Positions 138 through 34,443 of a DNA stretch of 37,143 nucleotides are shown in pieces. Position 1 is the first letter of the stretch; every line of letters begins with the position of its first letter. Both the position numbers and the translations under genes were made by a program. The stretch is from Muribaculaceae bacterium (GTDB taxonomy: Bacteria; Bacteroidota; Bacteroidia; Bacteroidales; Muribaculaceae). The notes under the pieces are model-generated. The model ran no database searches, had not been told where the DNA came from, and saw only the letters and a program-made list of their open reading frames with translations. Location of the stretch: assembly GCA_023667285.1 (NCBI GenBank), contig JAMPAK010000001.1:669106-706248 (forward strand). Reading direction: 5' to 3'.

Positions 138-3100
138 ATGAATATCCCTCTTCACCGTCTATGTGCTCTGGCTCTTGCTGCATTCGTTGTGGCAGGCGCT
201 TCAGCCGAGAAAAGACTCTATGATTTTGTCGTCCCCAGAGACGGCTCGTTCCGTGAGGCACTTGCTGCCGCAAACAATCGTAGCGACACCACTGCTCGCT
301 ACAGAATCTTCATCTGTCAGGGAGACTATAAAATCCCCACAGAGGGAACCACAAAAGGAGGCGATGGCCAGATGTATGGCGACGCACGTGCGTATCTCAC
401 CGCTCCCAATGTCTCGATTGTGGGCGAAGGACTCAACGTCACTACTCTCACAAATACAACCCCACCGGCCACATGGGACAATGGCTTCGGGCCTGCTTGC
501 CCCATCGAGGGTATAGGGCGTGGTGATGTCCTCATCATCCAGGCACCCGCTCACGACACTTACCTCTCAGGTGTCACACTCAAGAATGGAATGGCTGACA
601 GAACCGGACGCAATATTGTGCTGAATGACAAGTCAGACAAGACGATTGCCGACGACCTCTGCATCTGGGGCTACCAGGACACCTATGTTTCCAATAACAA
701 AGATGGCCGTTTTTATTTCAAGGACGGAGTGATCCGCGGCCGCACGGACTATATCTGTGGCAAAGGAGATGTGCTATATGACGGCGTCACCTTCCAGCAA
801 GTGGGTAAGGGCGGCTATCTGGCAGTGCCCTCTGTCCCCAGGAAGTATGGCTACGTCATGAAGGACTGCTATATCAAGAGCGAGACTCCAGATGTCACCT
901 ATTATCTTGGCCGTCCCTGGGGCAAGGGGACTCCCACAGCGATATTCATTGACACAAAGGTCGACACCGCCCCCATCACAAACGACAAGAATGGACATAA
1001 TGGATGGGCCGACATGAGTGGCGGCTATCCAGCTCGTTTTGCTGAGTATAACACATATCTCGCCGATGGCACCCCCGTGAGTCTTGAGGGTAGACGTGAT
1101 TCCTTCACAGACAAGCAAGGCAACACTCATCCCAACAACCCGGTGCTTACACCTGAGGAAGCTTCGACATACACCATGGCCACAGTCATTGACGGCTGGG
1201 ATCCAACTCCCATGACCGCCCAGGCTCCGCTCCCCAAGGATGTAAGGATGGAGGGTGGACGACTCGTATGGAAGGGGAGTGACGATGCGCTTCTCTATGC
1301 TGTGTGCCGCCACGGGAAGGTAGTCGACTTCACCACAGATGAATTCTATAAGGCAGGACGACTGAGCGACCCTGAGTGCTGGTCAGTCCGCGCTGCAAAC
1401 CAGATGGGTAAGCTCGGAGCGCCTGTCGCAGCAATGACACGCGAACAGGCCAGGATGAACCGCGGATATGGCAAGTGGGGCATCCGACGCACTGACCCAG
1501 AATTTTTCAAGACAGCGGAGGCCCGCAGGATTGGCGACCAGGTGCTGATGTGGCAGCGCGTCACCGGTGGTTGGCCCAAGAATGTCGACATGGTCACCCC
1601 CATGACCGATGAGCAGAAAGCACAGGTGCTTGCAGACAAGAACCGTCTCGATGACTCGACAACAGACAACGATGCCACAAACACCCAGCTCCGCTACCTT
1701 GCCCGCCTCTATAAAGCCACAGGGGACAAGAAATATCGCGATGCCTTTGAGAAGGGTGTCGACTATCTCCTGAGTGGTCAGTATGATAACGGCGGCTGGC
1801 CCCAGTTCTGGCCTGAGATGCGCGACTATCAGCCCCACATCACATATAATGACCACGCAATGGTCAACACCATGAGGCTCCTCCGCGACATCGCTGACGC
1901 AAACGAGCCCTTCGACACCGATCTCTGCGACAAGGCGCGCATCAAAAAGATGCGCCGCGCATTTGACAAGGGCGTCGAGTGCATCCTGGCAACCCAGATT
2001 GTGACTGACGGTGTCCCCACCGTGTGGTGTCAGCAGCACGACCATGTCACCCTCGAGCCTGCCTATGCCCGTGCCTACGAGCTCCCCTCATATTGCTCAA
2101 GCGAAAGCGCCGGAATCCTCGAGCTCCTCATGGAGATTCCCAATCCTGACAAGCGTGTCAAGAATGCCATTCACAATGGAATGGCCTGGATTGATAAATA
2201 CAAACTCACCGGACTTCGCTATGGCTCCGTGATGATCAACGGCAAGCCCGACCGTCTCCTCGTCGCTGACTCCCTGAGCCGCAAGCCCCTCTGGGCCCGC
2301 TTTTACGACCTTGACAATACTATCCCCTATGTATGTGACCGCGATGGGATCCCCGTGCGCCGCCTGGAGGAGATAGGCACTGAGCGCCGCAACGGCTATG
2401 GATGGTACAGCGACCGTCCAGCCGCCCTCTATCCCATGTATGAAGAGTGGGCAGACCGCTTTGACCCTGCAGGAAAGGTGAATATCAGCCTCGACACCAA
2501 AGGCGCAAACGAGAACGGAACCATCGAGATGTTTGCCACTCCCAAGATTGATGAGAGCCTCTTTGACGTGGTGGTAAACCGCGGAGAGAGCATCCAGGCA
2601 GCCATCGAGAAGGCCCCTGAGAATGGAACAGAGCCATTCAAAATACTTCTGAAGAACGGCCTCTACAATCAGAAGGTCATCATAGACCGTCCAAACATTG
2701 TGCTTGTGGGCGAGAACCGTGACAGCTGCATAATCGTTGGAGCTGAGGCCCGCGGCAATATGATGATGAGTGAGTATCGTGGTGAGAAAATGCATCCGGG
2801 AATAGTCTATATCACAGAGAAGGGTGACGACTGCCTCATCACAGGTGTCACCGTGATGAACAACTACGGCACAACCGTCACCAACACCACCACACACCAG
2901 TTTGCCGTCTATGGACGCGCCACAAGGACCATCATAGTCAACAGCAACATCATCTCTGACGGCAACGATGCCCTCTCCCTCTGGGGAAAGGGAGAGGACG
3001 GCAAGGGTGGGCTCTACTATCATGCCGACCTATTTGTCCGCTGTCCAGGCGTAGACTTCGTATGCCCCCGCGGCACATGCTATGCCACCCGCTGCCGCTT

Positions 3101-3530
3101 CCTCGGCGACACACGCGCCATCCTCTGGCATGACGGCCGCGGCGACATCAACAACAAGTTTGTCATCACCGACTCAGAGTTTGACGCATACAAGCCCACA
3201 CCTCTGGGACGCTATCACCACGACTCGCAGTTCATGCTTGTGAATTGCCGCATGTCTAAGAACATCCTCGATGAGAACATCGACCATGCCTATGCCAAGC
3301 GCAAACCAGGAGAGGGAGGCAAGCCCATGGATCCCTGTCCTTGGGGCAAGCGCATCTACTATCTGGGATGTGTCCGCGACGGCGGCAACAGTGGCTGGCT
3401 TGCTGACAATCTGAGCGATGCCCCCGGCAGTCCCCAGTACTACACGACAACCGCCACATGGACGTTCGACGGCAAGTGGGATCCTGAAAAGCGCATGCGC
3501 GACCTCTGGGCCGTGATTGCCTACAAATAA
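138..3530 (+). CDS. Secreted multimodular pectinase: pectinesterase (CE8) - pectate lyase (PL10) - pectinesterase-like
   Basis: A 1130-residue exported enzyme for pectin breakdown. Residues 1-23 are a signal peptide. Residues ~25-310 are a CE8 pectin methylesterase with GYQDTY (Asp181), TDYICGKGD (Asp204) and LGRPWG (Arg259), the canonical acid/base, nucleophile and arginine. Residues ~365-430 look like a fibronectin-III-type linker (LVW...YAVCRHGK...WSVRAAN). Residues ~440-775 are a PelA-type PL10 pectate lyase (WQRVTGGWPKN, NDATNTQLRYLA, NGGWPQFWPE, ITYNDHAM, VWCQQHD, YARAYELPS). Residues ~810-1130 are a second CE8-like beta-helix keeping GNDAL (Asp944) and GVDF (Asp973), but its YYLGCV end lacks the LGRPW arginine, so its activity is doubtful. 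Demethylation and lyase cleavage in one chain would act in sequence on homogalacturonan. No SusC/SusD genes adjoin it here; a putative lipoprotein follows after 13 bp. Confidence 0.93.
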   Translation: MNIPLHRLCALALAAFVVAGASAEKRLYDFVVPRDGSFREALAAANNRSDTTARYRIFICQGDYKIPTEGTTKGGDGQMYGDARAYLTAPNVSIVGEGLNVTTLTNTTPPATWDNGFGPACPIEGIGRGDVLIIQAPAHDTYLSGVTLKNGMADRTGRNIVLNDKSDKTIADDLCIWGYQDTYVSNNKDGRFYFKDGVIRGRTDYICGKGDVLYDGVTFQQVGKGGYLAVPSVPRKYGYVMKDCYIKSETPDVTYYLGRPWGKGTPTAIFIDTKVDTAPITNDKNGHNGWADMSGGYPARFAEYNTYLADGTPVSLEGRRDSFTDKQGNTHPNNPVLTPEEASTYTMATVIDGWDPTPMTAQAPLPKDVRMEGGRLVWKGSDDALLYAVCRHGKVVDFTTDEFYKAGRLSDPECWSVRAANQMGKLGAPVAAMTREQARMNRGYGKWGIRRTDPEFFKTAEARRIGDQVLMWQRVTGGWPKNVDMVTPMTDEQKAQVLADKNRLDDSTTDNDATNTQLRYLARLYKATGDKKYRDAFEKGVDYLLSGQYDNGGWPQFWPEMRDYQPHITYNDHAMVNTMRLLRDIADANEPFDTDLCDKARIKKMRRAFDKGVECILATQIVTDGVPTVWCQQHDHVTLEPAYARAYELPSYCSSESAGILELLMEIPNPDKRVKNAIHNGMAWIDKYKLTGLRYGSVMINGKPDRLLVADSLSRKPLWARFYDLDNTIPYVCDRDGIPVRRLEEIGTERRNGYGWYSDRPAALYPMYEEWADRFDPAGKVNISLDTKGANENGTIEMFATPKIDESLFDVVVNRGESIQAAIEKAPENGTEPFKILLKNGLYNQKVIIDRPNIVLVGENRDSCIIVGAEARGNMMMSEYRGEKMHPGIVYITEKGDDCLITGVTVMNNYGTTVTNTTTHQFAVYGRATRTIIVNSNIISDGNDALSLWGKGEDGKGGLYYHADLFVRCPGVDFVCPRGTCYATRCRFLGDTRAILWHDGRGDINNKFVITDSEFDAYKPTPLGRYHHDSQFMLVNCRMSKNILDENIDHAYAKRKPGEGGKPMDPCPWGKRIYYLGCVRDGGNSGWLADNLSDAPGSPQYYTTTATWTFDGKWDPEKRMRDLWAVIAYK

Positions 3531-20410: not shown

Positions 20411-20418
20411 TACTTTTG
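20411..20418 (+). promoter_or_regulatory. -7 box of the fused cytidylyltransferase/phosphotransferase gene
   Basis: TACTTTTG matches TAnnTTTG, ending 21 bases before the ATG at 20440; this places the in-frame ATG at 20416 inside the promoter and excludes it. The region diverges from the prolyl oligopeptidase promoter. Confidence 0.65.
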
Positions 20419-20439
20419 CATCCCTTTTGCATTCCTAAG

Positions 20440-22095
20440 ATGAACTACGTCATATTAGCCGCAGGCCTCGGCTCACGATTCACACTCGAGGGAGTCAATA
20501 CCCCGAAACCCCTTGTCCCCATCCTTGGCGAGCCAATGATAGGGCGCCTCATCAGGGTGCTTGCCTCTGCAGGAGACTGCGAGAGCATCCACATCGTGGC
20601 CAATCCGCGCATGGAGGGGCTGATAGAGTATCTTGAAGGGCTGAAGTCCCAGGGCGCGCCGCTGGAAGTCAAGCCATATGTCTCTGCTGACTCTTGGTCA
20701 TCGCTCCGTGTAGGAGCCGAGGGGATTGAGGGAAAGTTTATTGCAATGACCGTCGACGCCATCTTCCCCAACAGCGAGTTCGGAGAATTCAGAAAGTCTG
20801 TAGCTCGTATGGCTGAGGGTGAGGTGATGATGGCACTGACCCGCTTCATCGATGATGAGAGTCCCCTCTATGCCCGTCTCAGCCCTGACAGCCGTGAGGT
20901 GGTCGACTACCGCTATGGCGGAGAGCCGTTTGACGAGGGAGCCATCGTCTCAGCAGGGATTTACGGACTCACTTCAGATGCCATTCGGACAGTTGAGGCC
21001 CGGGAGTCGGCTCCTAAGTCGCTGAGTGACTTTCAGCGCATTCTCGCTGCTGAAACCCCTCAGAAAGTGAGGGTGTTTGAGATGTCGAAGGCTCTCGACG
21101 TGGACTGCTCCCACGACCGCGAGGGCGCTGAAACATTCCTACGCGAGGTCAACGGCGAGAAGCCCCGCCGCAAGAGTCTCAGGGATGAGTACAAGGACTC
21201 TCTCAAAAGCCTCGACACGGAGGAGCATATCGACCTGGCATTCTATCGTCCCATAGGGTTTGCATGGGCCTGCCTGTTCCGACGCCTTGGTGTCAGCCCC
21301 AATGCGGTCACAATAGCCTCCATATTCATCGGGGTGGCCGCCGGAATCTGCTTTTATCCCACGGCGTTATGGATAAATATCCTGGGAATGCTGCTGCTCA
21401 TATGGGCCAATTCGTTTGACAGTGCCGATGGCCAGCTGGCACGTCTCACCGGCCAGTATTCCCGGCTCGGCCGAATACTCGACGGCGTTTCGGGCGACTT
21501 CTGGTTCGCGTCCATCTACATAGCCATATGCCTGCGCACCGTGCATGGCGGACACTGGTGGGGTGACCATGCATGGGTCATATGGACCCTGGCCATCCTT
21601 GCCGGCATCTGTCATGGCAAGCAGGCAGCCTTGGCAGACTACTACCGTCAGCTCCACCTTCGATTCCTCAAGGGAAAGAGCGGAAGCGAGCTCGAGTCAT
21701 CGGCCCGTCTTGCTGAGGCAGATGCCCTCATCTCATGGCGCAAGGCACCTGTGCGCAAACTCATTTCCACCCTCTATCTGGCATATACCCGCAGTCAGGA
21801 GGCAGAGACTCCGGCCATGCAGCGGCTCAGGCGAGAGGTGGGCCGCAGGTGGCCCGACGGACATATCCCCGTCTGGTTCAGGGATGAGTTTCTCCGCCTC
21901 AGCCTCCCCCTCTGCAAGTGGGAAAACTTCATGACTTTCAACTGGCGTACTATTTTCTTGTTTCTCACGTTATTTATAGGAATGCCGTGGACATACTTCA
22001 TCATCGAGCTCACTCTGTTCAACATCGTGATGATTGCAACTAACCTCCGCCACGAGCACATCTGTAAATCGCTACTGAAACGCCTTGATGACTGA
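20440..22095 (+). CDS. Bifunctional nucleotidyltransferase / CDP-alcohol phosphotransferase
   Basis: 551 residues. Residues 1-235 are a MobA/GlmU-like nucleotidyltransferase (AAGLGSRF, TPKPLVPILGEPMI, TVDAIF for the metal Asp). Residues ~255-551 are a membrane CDP-alcohol phosphotransferase with DSADGQLAR (327-335), Gly344, Asp348 and Asp353. The canonical motif would put the last Asp at 352, so it is displaced by one residue. This pairing is the architecture of archaeal/thermophile enzymes that make CDP-inositol and then an inositol phosphodiester. Similar fusions sit near inositol-lipid genes in gut Bacteroides (from memory). A role in inositol-phosphate head-group supply or transfer is inferred, not proven. 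The stop overlaps the acyltransferase start (ATGACTGA). Confidence 0.82.
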   Translation: MNYVILAAGLGSRFTLEGVNTPKPLVPILGEPMIGRLIRVLASAGDCESIHIVANPRMEGLIEYLEGLKSQGAPLEVKPYVSADSWSSLRVGAEGIEGKFIAMTVDAIFPNSEFGEFRKSVARMAEGEVMMALTRFIDDESPLYARLSPDSREVVDYRYGGEPFDEGAIVSAGIYGLTSDAIRTVEARESAPKSLSDFQRILAAETPQKVRVFEMSKALDVDCSHDREGAETFLREVNGEKPRRKSLRDEYKDSLKSLDTEEHIDLAFYRPIGFAWACLFRRLGVSPNAVTIASIFIGVAAGICFYPTALWINILGMLLLIWANSFDSADGQLARLTGQYSRLGRILDGVSGDFWFASIYIAICLRTVHGGHWWGDHAWVIWTLAILAGICHGKQAALADYYRQLHLRFLKGKSGSELESSARLAEADALISWRKAPVRKLISTLYLAYTRSQEAETPAMQRLRREVGRRWPDGHIPVWFRDEFLRLSLPLCKWENFMTFNWRTIFLFLTLFIGMPWTYFIIELTLFNIVMIATNLRHEHICKSLLKRLDD

Positions 22096-27858: not shown

Positions 27859-28980
27859 ATGGAAAACAGAAAACTCCGCGTGGGCATAACCCACGGCGAC
27901 ATCAACGGAATCTCATATGAGGTGCTTCTCAAAGCCCTCGAGAATCCAGGCATAGCCGAGATGTGTACCCCCGTGGTCTACGGCTCCGCCAAGGTGGCCT
28001 CCTTCTGGCGCAAGGCCATCAAGGACCTCCCGGAGGTGAAGTTCACCACCATCGAGAGCGCTGCCGACGTCGACCCGGCCCAGCCCCGCACATATATTAT
28101 AAACGTCATTCCTGAGGATACCCCCGTCAACCCCGGAGAACCCACCAAGAGCGCCGGCACCGCGGCTCTCGCAGCCCTCGACCGCGCCACGGCCGACCTG
28201 CGCGACGGCCTCATCGACGTCCTCGTAACCTGCCCCATCAACAAAGCCGCCATCCACGGGGAGGAATTCGCCTTCCCCGGCCACACCGAGTATCTCGAGG
28301 CGCGTCTCGGCGCCGACGGCGACAAGGCCATGATGATAATGGCCTCCGAGAATCTCCGAGTGGCCCTCGTCACCATCCACACCCCCCTGGCCGACGTTAA
28401 GGAGGGTGTCACAGTCGAGTCTGTCCGCTCATCCATCGAAGCCCTCAACCGCTCCCTTGTCAACGACTTCGGCGTCCATGCCCCGCGCATAGCCGTGCTC
28501 GGACTCAACCCCCATGCCGGCGACGGCGGCGTCATCGGCTCCGAGGAGACCGACATCATCGCCCCGGCCATCGCCGAGGCTTACAAGAAGAAGATTCTCG
28601 CCTTCGGCCCCTATCCAGCCGATGGATTCTTTGCCGGAGGAGGCTACAAGAAGTTTGACGGCATCCTGGCCATGTATCACGACCAGGGCCTCACCCCCTT
28701 CAAGCTCCTGGCCCTCGACGGCGGCATCAACTTCACATCCGGGCTCCCCTATGTCCGCACTTCTCCCGACCATGGGACCGCCTACGACATAGCCGGACGC
28801 GGCGACGCTGACCCACAGTCGCTCCGCGAGGCCATATATGCCGCCATCGACATCTATCACAACCGCATCCGCGAGGCACAGGCCACTGCCAACCCCCTGC
28901 GCAAGCAGAACTTCGACCGCGGCAGCGACCGTGTCCCCCGCGAGAAGAAAGAGAAAAAAGAGCCGGAAACAACCGCATAA
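27859..28980 (+). CDS. pdxA: 4-hydroxythreonine-4-phosphate dehydrogenase
   Basis: 373 residues. It oxidises 4-phosphohydroxy-L-threonine in pyridoxal-5'-phosphate synthesis (DXP-dependent route). Family motifs: ITHGDINGISYE at the N-terminus, TCPINKAAIHG, FPGHTEYLEARLG, GLNPHAGDGG, and the block from MYHDQGLTPFK to SPDHGTAYDIAG, which supply the metal-binding histidines. The C-terminal ~25 residues are a basic/acidic tail beyond the E. coli length. Its position ahead of lipid-head-group genes is not obviously functional and may only reflect a shared operon. Confidence 0.95.
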   Translation: MENRKLRVGITHGDINGISYEVLLKALENPGIAEMCTPVVYGSAKVASFWRKAIKDLPEVKFTTIESAADVDPAQPRTYIINVIPEDTPVNPGEPTKSAGTAALAALDRATADLRDGLIDVLVTCPINKAAIHGEEFAFPGHTEYLEARLGADGDKAMMIMASENLRVALVTIHTPLADVKEGVTVESVRSSIEALNRSLVNDFGVHAPRIAVLGLNPHAGDGGVIGSEETDIIAPAIAEAYKKKILAFGPYPADGFFAGGGYKKFDGILAMYHDQGLTPFKLLALDGGINFTSGLPYVRTSPDHGTAYDIAGRGDADPQSLREAIYAAIDIYHNRIREAQATANPLRKQNFDRGSDRVPREKKEKKEPETTA

Positions 28981-28993
28981 ATCCCTCAGCCAG

Positions 28994-29830
28994 ATGTCGT
29001 CCATAAAGATTGCAGCCATCCTCCGCGCCGCCGCCTACTCTCCAAACCACATAGGCAACGACGCCGCCATCCTCAACCTCACGTGCGAGCAGCTGCGCAA
29101 ACGCGGATGCGAGGTCAAGACCTATTCCGAGGAACAGCTCATAGCCGGCGCAGTCACTGAGACAAACATCATCCACATGTGTCGCGACCGCCGCTCATTC
29201 CCCATCCTTCAGGCCAAGGAAGACGCCGGCGCCCTTGTGGTCAACTCTGCTTATGGCGTCGAGAACTGTGTCCGCGAGCGCATGGCCCGCATCCTCATCG
29301 GCTCCGGCATCCCTTATCCCGAGAGCATCATGGTCGACACCAACCAGACCGTCGTTAGCCGCCTGGACGCCATGGGCATATCCCGCGCATGGATTAAGAA
29401 AGGGGAGATGTATGCCATGCACAAGGAAGACGTCACCTACGTGCGCCACTCCCGCGAGGCTCAGGAGATGCTTCAGGAATACTTCCTGCGTGGCATCCGC
29501 CGCGCTGTCATCAACCGCCACCTCGACGGTGTCAAACTGAAGTTCTATGGCGTGGCAGGCACTCCCTGGTTCTACCATTCCTTCCCGCTGATGACACCCC
29601 CCGAGGGCCCCGGCCCCGAGGGATTTGACCTCGACGAGTTCATGTCCACATGCAACCGCGCCGCAGACACCCTCGACATCATGGTCTATGGAGGGGACGC
29701 CATTGTCCACGATGACGGCTCCTTCACAATCATCGACATCAACGACTGGCCCACATTTGCCCCATGCCGGGCTGAGGCCTCGGCCGTCATAGCCCGCGCA
29801 GTGCTTGCCCTCATCAAGGCCCGCGGCTGA
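28994..29830 (+). CDS. ATP-grasp-like protein of unknown substrate
   Basis: 278 residues from ATG 28994, 13 bp after pdxA; the open frame extends further upstream but only inside pdxA. It reads as a compact ATP-grasp enzyme: N-terminal Rossmann-like domain (KIAAILRAAAYSPNHIGNDAAIL), central nucleotide-binding lysine strand (RAWIKKGEMYAMHKEDV), then VKLKFYGVAG and a metal-site end YGGDAIVHDDG...IIDINDWPTFAPCR, where Asp and Asn of DIND would bind Mg-ATP. The D-x-N-x-x-P ending recalls inositol polyphosphate (ITPK-like) kinases and RimK-type ligases. Given adjacent lipid head-group transferases, phosphorylation of, or ligation to, an inositol-like polar group is an inference. No close named family recognised. 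Confidence 0.75.
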   Translation: MSSIKIAAILRAAAYSPNHIGNDAAILNLTCEQLRKRGCEVKTYSEEQLIAGAVTETNIIHMCRDRRSFPILQAKEDAGALVVNSAYGVENCVRERMARILIGSGIPYPESIMVDTNQTVVSRLDAMGISRAWIKKGEMYAMHKEDVTYVRHSREAQEMLQEYFLRGIRRAVINRHLDGVKLKFYGVAGTPWFYHSFPLMTPPEGPGPEGFDLDEFMSTCNRAADTLDIMVYGGDAIVHDDGSFTIIDINDWPTFAPCRAEASAVIARAVLALIKARG

Positions 29831-29875
29831 GAGCCACATCCCTCAAGCGTAACTACACCCACCAACCACCATATC

Positions 29876-30418
29876 ATGAACATCAAATTCAGCAGACTCA
29901 AAGACCGGTTTGTCAATGGCGGCGACATTGTCACCACCTTCCTCCGCTCATCCGTGTCATCGCAGATTGCGTCATGGCTCGACATGGGCACCGGATTCCT
30001 CCTCTTTGCCTTCTGCCACCTTGCCCCATGGCTCTCCACCGGCATCGGCGCCGTGGTCGGAGGGGTCGTGAACTGCTGCATCAACTATCGCTTCACATTT
30101 CACGCCTCATCAGTCCCCGTAAAGGCCGTCGCCGTCAAGTATCTCATGATATGGCTTGGCTCCCTGGTGCTAAACGTCAACGGCACACAGGCAATCTACT
30201 ACCTTCTGCAGCATCTCCCCTTCCTGGAGGAGTTAGGATTCAGACCCAACGGCTACTATGCCGCTGCCCGTCTCAGCGTCTCACTCATAGTCTCACTCTT
30301 CTGGAACTTCCTGCTGCAGAAAAACTTCGTCTACCGCAACACCCGCTTCGACCCCTACGCCATCCGCCTGGTCAACGCCATCATCCGCACAAAAGACCCA
30401 AGGAAGTCAGAACTCTGA
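29876..30418 (+). CDS. GtrA-family membrane protein
   Basis: 180 residues with four predicted transmembrane helices (SQIASWLDMGTGFLLFAF, GIGAVVGGVVNCCINYRFTF, KYLMIWLGSLVLNVNGTQAIYYLL, AARLSVSLIVSLFWNFLLQ) and the family ending NFLLQKNFVYR. GtrA proteins move undecaprenyl-phosphate-linked sugars across the inner membrane or assist the polyprenyl-sugar synthases. Here it lies between the ATP-grasp gene and a CDP-alcohol phosphatidyltransferase, without an adjacent GtrB; the GT2 at 8635 is a possible distant partner. The charged N-terminus (KFSRLKDRFVNGGD) is cytoplasmic. Confidence 0.88.
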   Translation: MNIKFSRLKDRFVNGGDIVTTFLRSSVSSQIASWLDMGTGFLLFAFCHLAPWLSTGIGAVVGGVVNCCINYRFTFHASSVPVKAVAVKYLMIWLGSLVLNVNGTQAIYYLLQHLPFLEELGFRPNGYYAAARLSVSLIVSLFWNFLLQKNFVYRNTRFDPYAIRLVNAIIRTKDPRKSEL

Positions 30419-30482
30419 ACACACCCCCACCACATAATAAAAAACGTTAACCATTAACCCGACAAACGATACCTAAATAATT

Positions 30483-31202
30483 ATGCCCCAGTCAGACATG
30501 GCACTCAATAACGCCCCATCATCCACATTCAAGCGCATGCGCGACGCCCTCCAGCAGGCCATCTACTGCGTCATCAACCCCTTTGTGCGCCTCCTCATCA
30601 AGATAGGCGTTACCCCCAACATGGTCACAACCATTGGCCTCCTCGGCAACATCGCCGCCGCCGGCGTCTTCGTGTGGGCCGGCTACACAGGCTCTCCCCT
30701 CGACATGAACTACCCGCTCGTCACACTCGCTGGCGTCCTCATCATAGCCTTCTCTCTCTTCGACATGCTCGACGGCCAGGTGGCGCGCATCGGAGGGATG
30801 GTCTCCACATTCGGCGCGATGTATGACTCCGTCCTCGACCGCTACTGCGAGCTCTTCACCCTCGGGGGCATCTCATTCTACTTCATTCAGACCGGCCGCG
30901 TCGTGGCCGCCCTCATCACCTTCATAGCCCTCGTCGGCTCCATCATGGTAAGCTATGTCCGCGCCCGTGCCGAGGGTCTCGGACTCGAGTGCAAGATAGG
31001 GTTCATGCAGCGCCCTGAGCGAGTGGTGGTCACCGCCATCGGAGCCATCGCCACAGGCGTTGTGGGTCAGAACGTCAGCCCCGACACATTCGATGCCTCA
31101 TGGATTCTCATCTCAGCCATGACCATCATAGCCATCTTCGCCAACATCACCGCTTTTGCCCGCATCGGCCATGCTCGCAGACAACTCACAGGCCGCCGTT
31201 AA
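30483..31202 (+). CDS. CDP-alcohol phosphatidyltransferase (phosphatidylinositol-phosphate-synthase-like)
   Basis: 239 residues, about six membrane helices. The full canonical motif is present: D-M-L-DG-Q-V-AR, eight residues, G-AMY-D-SVL-D (all four aspartates). The enzyme displaces CMP from a CDP-alcohol such as CDP-diacylglycerol to form a phosphodiester head group. The adjacent PAP2/Aur1-like gene and the fused nucleotidyltransferase upstream favour inositol-1-phosphate as acceptor, as in the Bacteroides inositol-lipid locus (from memory); phosphatidylglycerophosphate or archaetidyl-type acceptors are not excluded. Its 3' end overlaps the next gene by 32 bp. Confidence 0.87.
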   Translation: MPQSDMALNNAPSSTFKRMRDALQQAIYCVINPFVRLLIKIGVTPNMVTTIGLLGNIAAAGVFVWAGYTGSPLDMNYPLVTLAGVLIIAFSLFDMLDGQVARIGGMVSTFGAMYDSVLDRYCELFTLGGISFYFIQTGRVVAALITFIALVGSIMVSYVRARAEGLGLECKIGFMQRPERVVVTAIGAIATGVVGQNVSPDTFDASWILISAMTIIAIFANITAFARIGHARRQLTGRR

Positions 31203-32133
31203 GCCCTGCCGCCTCCCCTCGCGCCGCGAGGGCACCGTCATCCTCATCTGCCTCCTGCTCTGGCTCGCAGTGACCGCCCTCTTCGTGGGGTTCCGCCCTG
31301 AGCACCTCTACATTGCCCTCTTCCTTGGGGTCATGCTCTTTGCCGCCTCAGCCACACGACGACTCGTGGTGGCTCTGCTCCCCTTCATTGTCTTCGGCAT
31401 CTCATACGACTGGATGAACATCCTCCCCAACTATGAGGTCAATCCCGTCGACATCCGCGGCCTCTATGAGGCTGAGAAAGCAGCGTTTGGAGTCACCGTC
31501 CAGGGCATCGTCCTCACCCCAAACGAGTGGTGGGCGCTTCATCAGTCGGCCATACTCGACTTCATGGCCGGATGCTTCTACCTCTGCTGGGTTCCCGTCC
31601 CCATCCTCTTCGGCCTGTGGCTTTATCTCGACCGCCAGTATGACGTCTATCTCCACTTCTCGCTAGTCTTCCTGCTGGTCAATCTCATAGGCTTCGCCCT
31701 CTACTATGTCCATCCCGCAGCCCCGCCGTGGTATGTCGACTCCTATGGCTTCGACTTCATCCCCGGGACTCATGGCGAGACCGCCGGCCTGAGCCGCTGG
31801 GACACCATGACCGGACTCACCATCTTCGACGGCCTCTACTCGCGCAACTCCAATGTCTTCGCCGCCTTTCCCTCACTCCATGCCGCCTATATGCTCGTGG
31901 CCACCATCTACTCCATGCGCGCCCGCTGCTCCTGGTGGCTGCGCGGTCTCTTCGCCTTCATTTGTCTGGGCATATGGTTCACGGCCGTCTACTCCTTCCA
32001 TCACTACATCATCGATGTCCTCGCAGGCATCAGCGTCACCATCATCGGCACCCTCCTCTTCGAGCAGGGCTTCATGCACATCACCCCGTTCCGCCGCTTT
32101 CTCAGCGCCTACAGCCGCTACATAGCCCGCTGA
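31171..32133 (+). CDS. PAP2/Aur1-like phosphotransferase (candidate inositol-phosphosphingolipid synthase)
   Basis: 320 residues, about seven transmembrane helices. The start ATG 31171 lies inside the upstream gene (an in-frame TTG at 31156 is the alternative). The PAP2_3 catalytic pattern is visible: FPSLHAAY (His237) and SFHHYIIDVLAG (His278, Asp282), the form found in Aur1 inositol-phosphorylceramide synthases rather than in ordinary PgpB phosphatases (PSGH). Such enzymes move phosphoinositol from phosphatidylinositol to ceramide on the periplasmic face. The neighbouring CDP-alcohol phosphatidyltransferase would supply the donor. Substrate remains an inference. Confidence 0.83.
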   Translation: MLADNSQAAVKPCRLPSRREGTVILICLLLWLAVTALFVGFRPEHLYIALFLGVMLFAASATRRLVVALLPFIVFGISYDWMNILPNYEVNPVDIRGLYEAEKAAFGVTVQGIVLTPNEWWALHQSAILDFMAGCFYLCWVPVPILFGLWLYLDRQYDVYLHFSLVFLLVNLIGFALYYVHPAAPPWYVDSYGFDFIPGTHGETAGLSRWDTMTGLTIFDGLYSRNSNVFAAFPSLHAAYMLVATIYSMRARCSWWLRGLFAFICLGIWFTAVYSFHHYIIDVLAGISVTIIGTLLFEQGFMHITPFRRFLSAYSRYIAR

Positions 32134-33063: not shown

Positions 33064-34251
33064 TCAATAAGTTATTTTTGCTTTTACCGGATAGTAGTTT
33101 ATTGGCGAATAGTTGGAACTGTTATCAAGGGCAAATACTTCCCCCTTGAAGTAGCCGTTGCAATAGCCTCCCCATCCCCAATCGCAATGGAAATAATAGT
33201 CTAAATATTCGTCGGTGTCCAAATCTAATTTATAGTAGCCTCCGTCAATCACCCAGGCATGACCATCCTCATCATGTCCTTCGACATATACCAGATAATT
33301 ATCTCTAATAAAATCCATGAGTTCTTCCATAGTTTTTTTGTAAATGTGATTTGAACCAACTTCATAGCCCATGCTCTTCATTAAATCTATAGCCTTATAT
33401 GTGTATGCACTACTCTTGCCAGAAGTATATTTCATACCGACCTCTTTGCCTATGTCATAAAGTAACATGGCCATATCATCCTCAGCCTCCTCATATGTCT
33501 TACTGGGGAACATGCTATGGGTTCGGAGAATTCCTCCATCCGGTCTCTGTTTGTGATAGATGGCCTCAACAATGGAGGGGAACGGATAAACGACTCCGCG
33601 TAGATTAGCGGTTGCTTTGCAGTGTGACATTATCAGGCCTGTCGCGATTGCAACACATCCAACCGGACATCCGGGATTATCAATCTTGACGAATTTATCC
33701 CATGGGTCATAGTAATACAGCGTAATTTTGAGTTTGGGACCAACCCTTACACAGCCATCGTCTGCCCATAATCCTTCTGAAATGGACATAGTGTCTTTCC
33801 TGATGGGCTTGTCATCGATTATTATAGATGAGTAGTCTTGAATTTTATCTATAAAATTTTCTTTTGCACTCTCATTCTCAAATGAGAATGAACCTTCATC
33901 CGAGAAGGCCAGGATGGGATTGTCGCTCTCTACACCGGAGACCACTACGAATCCCTTGTCCATCGGATAGTTCAGGATGTAGGCGAGGGTGTCAGGCAGG
34001 ATGTCGGTCGAACGTGATTTGTCCGATTTGAACACATATTGAATTTCTGGATTGGAATAATCTCCGCTCCTTGACTTCTTCAGACCGGACATGAAGCGGT
34101 CTCCGATTCTCACGGCTCTTGACTGTGACATGTCTTGAACCAAACCCAATGAGGGCTTTTCGAGATTAACAATCTCCGGGTTCTCATCTGATGTGCATGC
34201 CGTTGCCAGCAATGCCATGATGAGCATGATGATGAATTTGAATTGATTCAT
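33064..34251 (-). CDS. C10-family (streptopain-like) cysteine protease, lipoprotein
   Basis: 395 residues from ATG 34251, which begins a lipoprotein signal (LLATAC, Cys19). An N-terminal propeptide resembling the Spi inhibitor domain spans ~45-150 (LAYILNYPMDKGFVVVSG). The catalytic part holds GCPVGCVAIATG with nucleophile Cys199, GHAWVIDGG with His331, and the family segment HCDWGWGG followed by NGYF. The usual W-x-Q-x-x-PYN stretch before the Cys, which provides the oxyanion-hole Gln, is replaced by YYYDPWDKF, so activity may be altered. Related secreted proteases occur in Bacteroides fragilis (Bfp) and Streptococcus (SpeB). The gene is AT-rich relative to neighbours. Confidence 0.88.
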   Translation of the reverse strand: MNQFKFIIMLIMALLATACTSDENPEIVNLEKPSLGLVQDMSQSRAVRIGDRFMSGLKKSRSGDYSNPEIQYVFKSDKSRSTDILPDTLAYILNYPMDKGFVVVSGVESDNPILAFSDEGSFSFENESAKENFIDKIQDYSSIIIDDKPIRKDTMSISEGLWADDGCVRVGPKLKITLYYYDPWDKFVKIDNPGCPVGCVAIATGLIMSHCKATANLRGVVYPFPSIVEAIYHKQRPDGGILRTHSMFPSKTYEEAEDDMAMLLYDIGKEVGMKYTSGKSSAYTYKAIDLMKSMGYEVGSNHIYKKTMEELMDFIRDNYLVYVEGHDEDGHAWVIDGGYYKLDLDTDEYLDYYFHCDWGWGGYCNGYFKGEVFALDNSSNYSPINYYPVKAKITY

Positions 34252-34443
34252 TTTTGTTGAATTTTTGGCGCAACACTCAGTTTTGCTTTGAAGTGTTGGC
34301 AAATTTGACGATTTTATTTGAAATATGAAAATTTTATTTCTTCTTTAACATACTAGGGGGGTGAATGTCTTTTCGAGGTGTTTACATTGCCGGGTGATGG
34401 CGGATGGGTGGGTGCTGATGAAGATTCATGATTTATAGTTGTT

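Follow-up and report, generated by a model that had tools for sequence, protein, structure and literature searches.

According to the accessible text of PMC9246714, inositol lipids are relatively rare among bacteria, and losing them reduces the fitness of Bacteroides thetaiotaomicron in gnotobiotic mice. In this species, the same text assigns BT_1522 to the inositol phosphoceramide (IPC) synthase, BT_1523 to the phosphatidylinositol-phosphate synthase (PIPS), BT_1524 to a GtrA protein, BT_1525 to the phosphatidylinositol-phosphate (PIP) phosphatase and BT_1526 to the myo-inositol-phosphate synthase (MIPS). Reports on the BT_1524 mutant differ: as described in the accessible text of PMC8791184, inositol phosphoceramide goes down and phosphatidylinositol (PI) goes up, and in that of a second study the thin-layer chromatography pattern is unaltered (PMC9246714). 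A putative alternative cluster was proposed by Heaver et al. for B. vulgatus and Prevotella, with a nucleotidyltransferase (NTP transferase, BVU_RS13095), a CDP-alcohol transferase (RS13105) and a HAD hydrolase (RS13115) near MIPS (PMC9246714, in the text available). The present analysis concerns an ATP-grasp gene in a stretch of 37,143 nucleotides from a Muribaculaceae bacterium (the window; G000:C11:669106-706248, in a genome of 2.19 Mb that is 93.8% complete), where it lies among genes of both routes. The core of this locus is already known. What deserves attention is that the ATP-grasp gene recurs in the alternative pathway, together with the hypothesis that it encodes a kinase. The gene shares the alternative cluster with the NTP transferase and the CDP-alcohol phosphotransferase (CDPAP) in most Bacteroidota loci read, and the window locus is very probably a merger of the two inositol-lipid pathways.

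Five genes follow one another on the + strand from 27859, with a fused gene upstream of them:

20416..22095, + strand: fused nucleotidyltransferase (about residues 1-240) and CDP-alcohol phosphotransferase (NTP_transf_3 PF12804 and CDP-OH_P_transf PF01066)
27859..28980, + strand: pdxA, 4-hydroxythreonine-4-phosphate dehydrogenase (TIGR00557, 365 bits, above cut-off)
28994..29830, + strand: ATP-grasp protein of 278 residues, ATG at 28994 (AlphaFold2 model, Foldseek, profiles and neighbourhoods)
29876..30418, + strand: GtrA family membrane protein, counterpart of BT_1524 (PF04138, E 9.7e-9)
30483..31202, + strand: PIPS, CDP-alcohol phosphatidyltransferase, a BT_1523-like phosphatidylinositol-phosphate synthase (PF01066; NF052561, PIPSynBT1523)
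31171..32133, + strand: IPCS, a PAP2/Aur1-like and BT_1522-like phosphoinositol dihydroceramide synthase (NF052609)

The window genome resembles the alternative cluster in having the NTP and CDPAP functions, as the fusion at 20416-22095, and differs from it in that its genes are scattered and that the HAD protein gave no match in G000 (93.8% complete); the query concerned found orthologues (E < 1e-60) in 6 of the 20 genomes searched. The arrangements in relatives are observed, whereas the direction of the merger is our inference. Of the first 19 loci read in relatives, 17 have the ATP-grasp gene between the NTP transferase and the CDP-alcohol transferase, a placement that by locus-tag numbering may be that of RS13100 in the published cluster. 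Three loci of the window's own genus (L034-L036) read pdxA-NTP-ATPgrasp-GtrA-PIPS-IPCS-CDPAP. Five others (L041, L043, L044, L050 and L051) read pdxA-NTP-ATPgrasp-CDPAP-(gap)-MIPS, the gap gene being HAD in L043. Both gene sets, PgpA included, are found in L040, and in L047 and L048 PIPS-IPCS lie outside the NTP-ATPgrasp-CDPAP run. In L045, about 4 kb separates two diverged ATP-grasp genes, of which one lies between NTP and CDPAP and the other after pdxA; L046 has pdxA-ATPgrasp only. The window genome and G104 are without separate NTP and CDPAP genes at the locus, and the fused gene lies 7.9 to 8.6 kb away.

Co-occurrence was counted in 119 genomes of the window's family (Muribaculaceae), 159 Bacteroidales and 395 Bacteroidota; the Fisher P values given below ignore kinship. 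A PIPS match was called strong at E < 1e-70, and CDPAP matches no better than E 2.3e-5 and PIPS matches no better than 2.3e-9 were counted as absent. The ATP-grasp gene and inositol-lipid genes occur together far beyond chance. Within the family it is found in 112 genomes, MIPS in 100, CDPAP in 96 and strong PIPS in 37. All 100 MIPS genomes have it, and the 7 genomes without it are all without MIPS (Fisher 9e-7). Where ATP-grasp and CDPAP are both present they share one contig in 95/95 genomes, and in 93 they are no more than 6 kb apart; only the window genome and G104, its closest sampled relative, depart from this. CDPAP is present in one family genome (G052) that has neither ATP-grasp nor MIPS. 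Near-universal occurrence of PIPS in the family was rejected: 112 genomes give a match, 37 of them at E < 1e-70, the best of the others being 2.3e-9 or weaker.

The association extends beyond the family. Among the 159 Bacteroidales, 18 genomes have ATP-grasp and 23 have MIPS, and all 18 of the former are among the latter (Fisher 1.4e-19). In the 15 ATP-grasp genomes outside the family, CDPAP adjoins in 15/15, NTP in 14/15 (the fifteenth locus is cut by a contig end) and HAD in 13/15, and MIPS lies in the same stretch in 12/15; contig ends cut loci L085 and L097. The Bacteroidota sample gives at least 16 ATP-grasp matches, 15 of them strong and 14 of the strong ones with MIPS; up to six first-look candidates were scored per genome, so misses are possible, and G456 (E 4.1e-4) was set aside as a probable chance match. 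In the 14 strong genomes besides the window's, the same stretch holds NTP in 14/14 and CDPAP and HAD in 13/14. Another 49 Bacteroidota genomes have MIPS and no ATP-grasp match, which indicates that MIPS often serves other uses.

The preliminary description of this DNA had tied the ATP-grasp gene to the lipid pair of PIPS and PAP2 genes. That holds inside the family, where it is present in 37/37 strong-PIPS genomes (within 6 kb in 33, on another contig in 4), and fails outside it. Five Bacteroidales genomes have MIPS without ATP-grasp; four of these carry the B. thetaiotaomicron-type set (MIPS, PgpA, GtrA, PIPS, IPCS), so that the ATP-grasp gene accompanies such a set in 0/4, and in the fifth only MIPS was seen within 18 kb. 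One of these sets, L185, has a different order, with IPCS 7 kb away. In one genus, L231 (G511) is an alternative cluster with ATP-grasp and L186 (G176) a B. thetaiotaomicron-type set without it; this contrast suggests cluster exchange. Close ATP-grasp relatives also occur in records of metagenome-assembled genomes titled Paenibacillus, Lachnospiraceae and Clostridium (L105, L163, L182), labels that are probably wrong.

GtrA-PIPS-IPCS of the window is the published BT_1524-1523-1522 cassette in the same order, as given in the accessible text of PMC9246714 and PMC8791184. Because GtrA is BT_1524 of that cluster, it cannot count as the extension of the core for which it had been taken. The tight, unidirectional gene order, the fused enzyme about 8 kb upstream (8.4 kb from PIPS) and the 32 bp overlap of PIPS and IPCS are all present as described; the overlap applies to the ATG at 31171, and a longer TTG reading frame of IPCS starts at 31156. 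Identification as an inositol-lipid locus is likewise borne out: the PIPS motif DxxDGxxAR...GxxxDxxxD is intact, at residue 94, and IPCS scores 489 bits with NF052609, over the cut-off of 480. PIPS also matches PI synthases in the PDB (E 3.6e-21), and the SLHA and HHYIID motifs are present in IPCS. The best NCBIfam model for PIPS is PIPSynBT1523 (NF052561), at 272.7 bits and under the cut-off of 350. This cut-off is reached by 0/119 family genomes and may therefore be narrow.

Like B. thetaiotaomicron, the window genome has MIPS and a PgpA-type gene; it differs in that both lie outside the cluster, that an ATP-grasp gene precedes GtrA and that a fused NTP-CDPAP gene is nearby. An inositol-phosphate synthase missing from the window was expected elsewhere, and the single MIPS match in the genome was indeed found about 449 kb past the locus (G000:C11:1150402). 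PgpA also has a single match, on another contig (C19:18403); its identity to the PgpA that L040 carries together with GtrA-PIPS-IPCS is 39%. The gene before it, judged by eye, we take to be mutS. This PgpA may be an ordinary phosphatidylglycerophosphate phosphatase.

The two halves of the fused gene have different relationships. Its CDPAP half is 53-63% identical to relatives' separate CDPAP genes, and its NTP half 33-38% to their separate NTP genes. In a wider alignment the NTP half is closest to L191 and L193, whose NTP genes directly precede CDPAP, at 66-68% identity, and only 28-38% identical to the other 14 aligned NTP genes (L092 was left out of the alignment, having a stop inside its range). 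The NTP half thus belongs to a different lineage and was probably acquired. Searched against the PDB, the CDPAP profile finds 4o6m, 4mnd and choline/ethanolaminephosphotransferase 1. The archaeal bifunctional inositol-phosphate cytidylyltransferase/CDP-inositol transferase (4mnd; NF041135) shares its two domains and their order with 20416-22095, but the window gene scores 52 bits against a cut-off of 580 and has Gly in its CDPAP half at the canonical fourth Asp. The CDP-alcohol transferase motif has a canonical fourth Asp; in CDPAP of the alternative cluster, Gly stands at this position in 15/15 aligned sequences, with Asp or Asn one residue on. In HAD phosphatases, a second Asp (the D+2 acid) is usual in motif I. 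The HAD protein of the alternative cluster reads D-[YF]-G-G-T there in 39 of 42 loci (e.g. L043:10056-10763), and the D+2 residue is Gly in 12/12 aligned. With a HAD protein lacking the second Asp and a CDPAP lacking the fourth, the reaction scheme as published may have to be revised. In the text available (PMC9246714), Heaver et al. suggest the HAD protein as the PI-ceramide synthase; the HAD data given here neither support nor exclude this.

The fold of the ATP-grasp protein is ATP-grasp: its AlphaFold2 model (pLDDT 90.9, pTM 0.87) matches ATP-grasp enzymes in Foldseek at E ~1e-13. The window protein is without a Pfam match. A single-sequence PDB search gave only two weak matches, so profiles were needed (A1, 26 rows; A2, 35 diverse rows). 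With A1, the ITPK structure 1z2n comes first (8.7e-6), followed by the ligase ArgX 3vpb (5.6e-5) and ITPK1 chains (~1e-3). With A2, 1z2n is again first (4.9e-7), followed by PsnB 7drm (7.4e-7), ITPK4 7pup (3.7e-6) and ITPK1 2odt (2e-4). The metal site is D-x-N, with D in 33/35 and N in 35/35 rows of A2, D in 21/26 of A1 and E in 0/35 and 0/26. The aligned ITPKs (1z2n, 7pup) show D-x-N as well, and the ligases 3vpb and 7drm show E-x-N. Lys183 is invariant in both alignments; in 3vpb and 7drm the aligned residue is Arg. The window protein thus shares with the ITPK kinases (PDB 1z2n, 2odt, 7pup) the ATP-grasp fold, profile similarity and the D-x-N metal site; it differs from them in being bacterial, in having no Pfam match and in a whole-fold ranking that favours ligases. 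On balance, inositol-phosphate kinase activity is the leading candidate at a little under an even chance, a ligase is rather unlikely, and some other activity is unlikelier still.

The favoured explanation as a whole, a merged locus with the ATP-grasp protein as a head-group enzyme and most likely a kinase, is given a probability of roughly 0.6. Several observations weigh against it. The 50 Foldseek matches listed, from 687 at E <= 0.001, are Ddl, PsnB, ArgX, RimK and DcsG, with no ITPK among those listed. In the PDB profile ranks the ligases are close behind ITPK, and several short, weakly matching stretches add up to the 1z2n score. Pfam, run on 35 relatives, gives ITPK (PF05770) in 2/35 and RimK in 3/35, all weak; the best PF05770 match has E 0.0048 and 16.9 bits against a cut-off of 23. 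The NCBIfam model rimK_fam matches 33/35 members (best E 1.5e-11); the window protein itself scores 22.3 bits, under the cut-off of 143.4, and NCBIfam, which covers prokaryote families, may lack an ITPK competitor. For the NTP profile, the best PDB match is glucose-1-phosphate thymidylyltransferase (2.6e-12), and inositol-phosphate cytidylyltransferases come lower: 4jd0, so called in the accessible text of PMC12275187, at 3.5e-11 and 2xme at 1.5e-9. With a sugar nucleotidyltransferase ranked above them, the NTP substrate is not fixed. On the genomic side, 12 family genomes have ATP-grasp with MIPS not detected, 8 with CDPAP and 4 lacking both CDPAP and PIPS. In one of these 4 (G049), ATP-grasp and the NTP match next to it lie where a contig ends, and the genome was hence counted without CDPAP. 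The other three, all of one genus (G058, G077 and G093; L102, L196 and L197), have pdxA-ATPgrasp only, without MIPS and without a strong match to PIPS or CDPAP. Finally, G464 (L230) is without a MIPS match and has a PfkB-family kinase, possibly an inositol kinase, next to HAD; if this kinase supplies inositol-phosphate, the ATP-grasp protein need not. A simple salvage role of the ATP-grasp protein, from free inositol to inositol-phosphate, was considered and is weakened by this PfkB gene near a cluster with no MIPS match.

These points bear differently on the alternatives. A RimK/Ddl-type ligase would couple a carboxylate, such as an amino acid, to the inositol head group, as an ester, or as an amide where an inosamine is made. 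The rimK_fam matches and the listed Foldseek matches speak for it, and the aminotransferase and GFO/IDH/MocA dehydrogenase of L222 and L227, two distant loci, could provide the amine. Yet the metal site is D-x-N rather than the E-x-N of the aligned ligases, Lys stands in place of their Arg, and the RimK-like ligase 7qyr reaches only 0.026 with the wider profile A2; the run from NTP to MIPS in L084 and L088 is so tightly packed that an aminotransferase would not fit. Such a ligase is doubtful on balance. It is improbable that the locus is a plain B. thetaiotaomicron-type cluster in which the ATP-grasp protein has no role: GtrA-PIPS-IPCS is indeed the B. thetaiotaomicron cassette, and the sets of other families lack the gene, but 13/119 family genomes have ATP-grasp with MIPS and PIPS and no CDPAP match better than 2.3e-5, which means that ATP-grasp is kept with the B. 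thetaiotaomicron cassette alone. The window genome moreover retains its fused NTP-CDPAP gene. Service in vitamin B6 synthesis or another pathway with pdxA, the link to lipid genes being inherited gene order, would account for the genus that keeps pdxA-ATPgrasp only and for the many, not all, ATP-grasp loci where pdxA adjoins. Outside the family, however, pdxA is found in 6/15 Bacteroidales loci against 15/15 for CDPAP and 14/15 for NTP, and in 1/14 phylum-sample loci against 14/14 for NTP, so this explanation is very improbable. The pdxA gene is probably a frequent upstream neighbour of ATP-grasp and not part of the lipid pathway.

Under the favoured explanation, a merged locus with a head-group enzyme, the cassette GtrA-PIPS-IPCS would convert CDP-diacylglycerol and inositol-phosphate to PI-phosphate. 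A PgpA-type enzyme encoded elsewhere would dephosphorylate this to PI, and inositol-phosphoceramide would follow. The cassette would sit between ATP-grasp and the former place of CDPAP in a Kennedy-like NTP-ATPgrasp-CDPAP-HAD-MIPS cluster, and in the window genome the NTP and CDPAP functions would survive as the fused enzyme 8 kb upstream. In the Kennedy-like route, MIPS would make Ins-3-P, the NTP enzyme would make CDP-inositol, and CDPAP would move the head group onto the lipid. An ATP-grasp kinase would add a phosphate to inositol-phosphate (or inositol) ahead of cytidylyl transfer, either at the usual linkage position of PI or to give a PIP-like head group. Relatives with only B. thetaiotaomicron-type genes keep the ATP-grasp gene, and its substrate should therefore be common to both routes. 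Further phosphorylation of the head group, proposed in the preliminary description, is possible. No glycosyltransferase, which would fit the glycosylation also proposed there, was identified among the conserved neighbours, where none was sought by name.

Clusters in distant Bacteroidota are more elaborate. In L222 and L227, both checked with Pfam, the cluster adds a class III aminotransferase, a GFO/IDH/MocA dehydrogenase and an LPG_synthase_TM protein; the L227 dehydrogenase is closest to inositol 2-dehydrogenase (E 3.5e-22, under cut-off). An MlaE permease, an ABC ATPase and an MlaD protein were identified in L227, and L220-L222, L225, L226 and L228 have genes matching these by size and order only. 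More widely, genes of similar size and order join NTP-ATPgrasp-CDPAP-HAD-MIPS in L220-L222 and L225-L229, their Pfam identities coming from L222 and L227. A tandem pair of ATP-grasp genes is present in L220, L221, L227 and L228. The gene content suggests a candidate amino-inositol lipid pathway with its own exporter. A broader and speculative proposal, unlikely as it stands in full, is that a bacterial ITPK-like branch of ATP-grasp proteins could be a constant step of CDP-inositol lipid synthesis across Bacteroidota. It would phosphorylate the inositol unit either ahead of cytidylyl transfer or following it, and in distant classes the pathway would in addition make amino-inositol lipids and export them through Mla, using the inositol dehydrogenase, the class III aminotransferase and sometimes the second, tandem ATP-grasp protein.

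Elsewhere in the window, 138-3530 encodes a large protein that contains pectate lyase and pectinesterase domains, and a C10-family cysteine peptidase with an Inhibitor_I69 domain lies beyond the locus at 33064-34302 on the - strand. A megablast of window positions 29000-30500 against a plasmid collection gave no match. In the literature, the main texts of PMC9246714, PMC12275187, PMC10865984 and PMC8791184, in the form available, do not contain the term "ATP-grasp". A search for ATP-grasp or ITPK together with bacterial inositol lipids found no such paper in the part of the matches covered, supplements and figures being outside its scope; Fig. 6 of Heaver et al. may show the ATP-grasp gene unlabelled.

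Of the two inositol-lipid routes in Bacteroidota, one is known as a prediction only, and to this one the present analysis adds a recurrent gene. It also offers a concrete hypothesis, that of a bacterial inositol-phosphate kinase, and indicates that there may be a class of amino-inositol lipids served by an exporter of its own.

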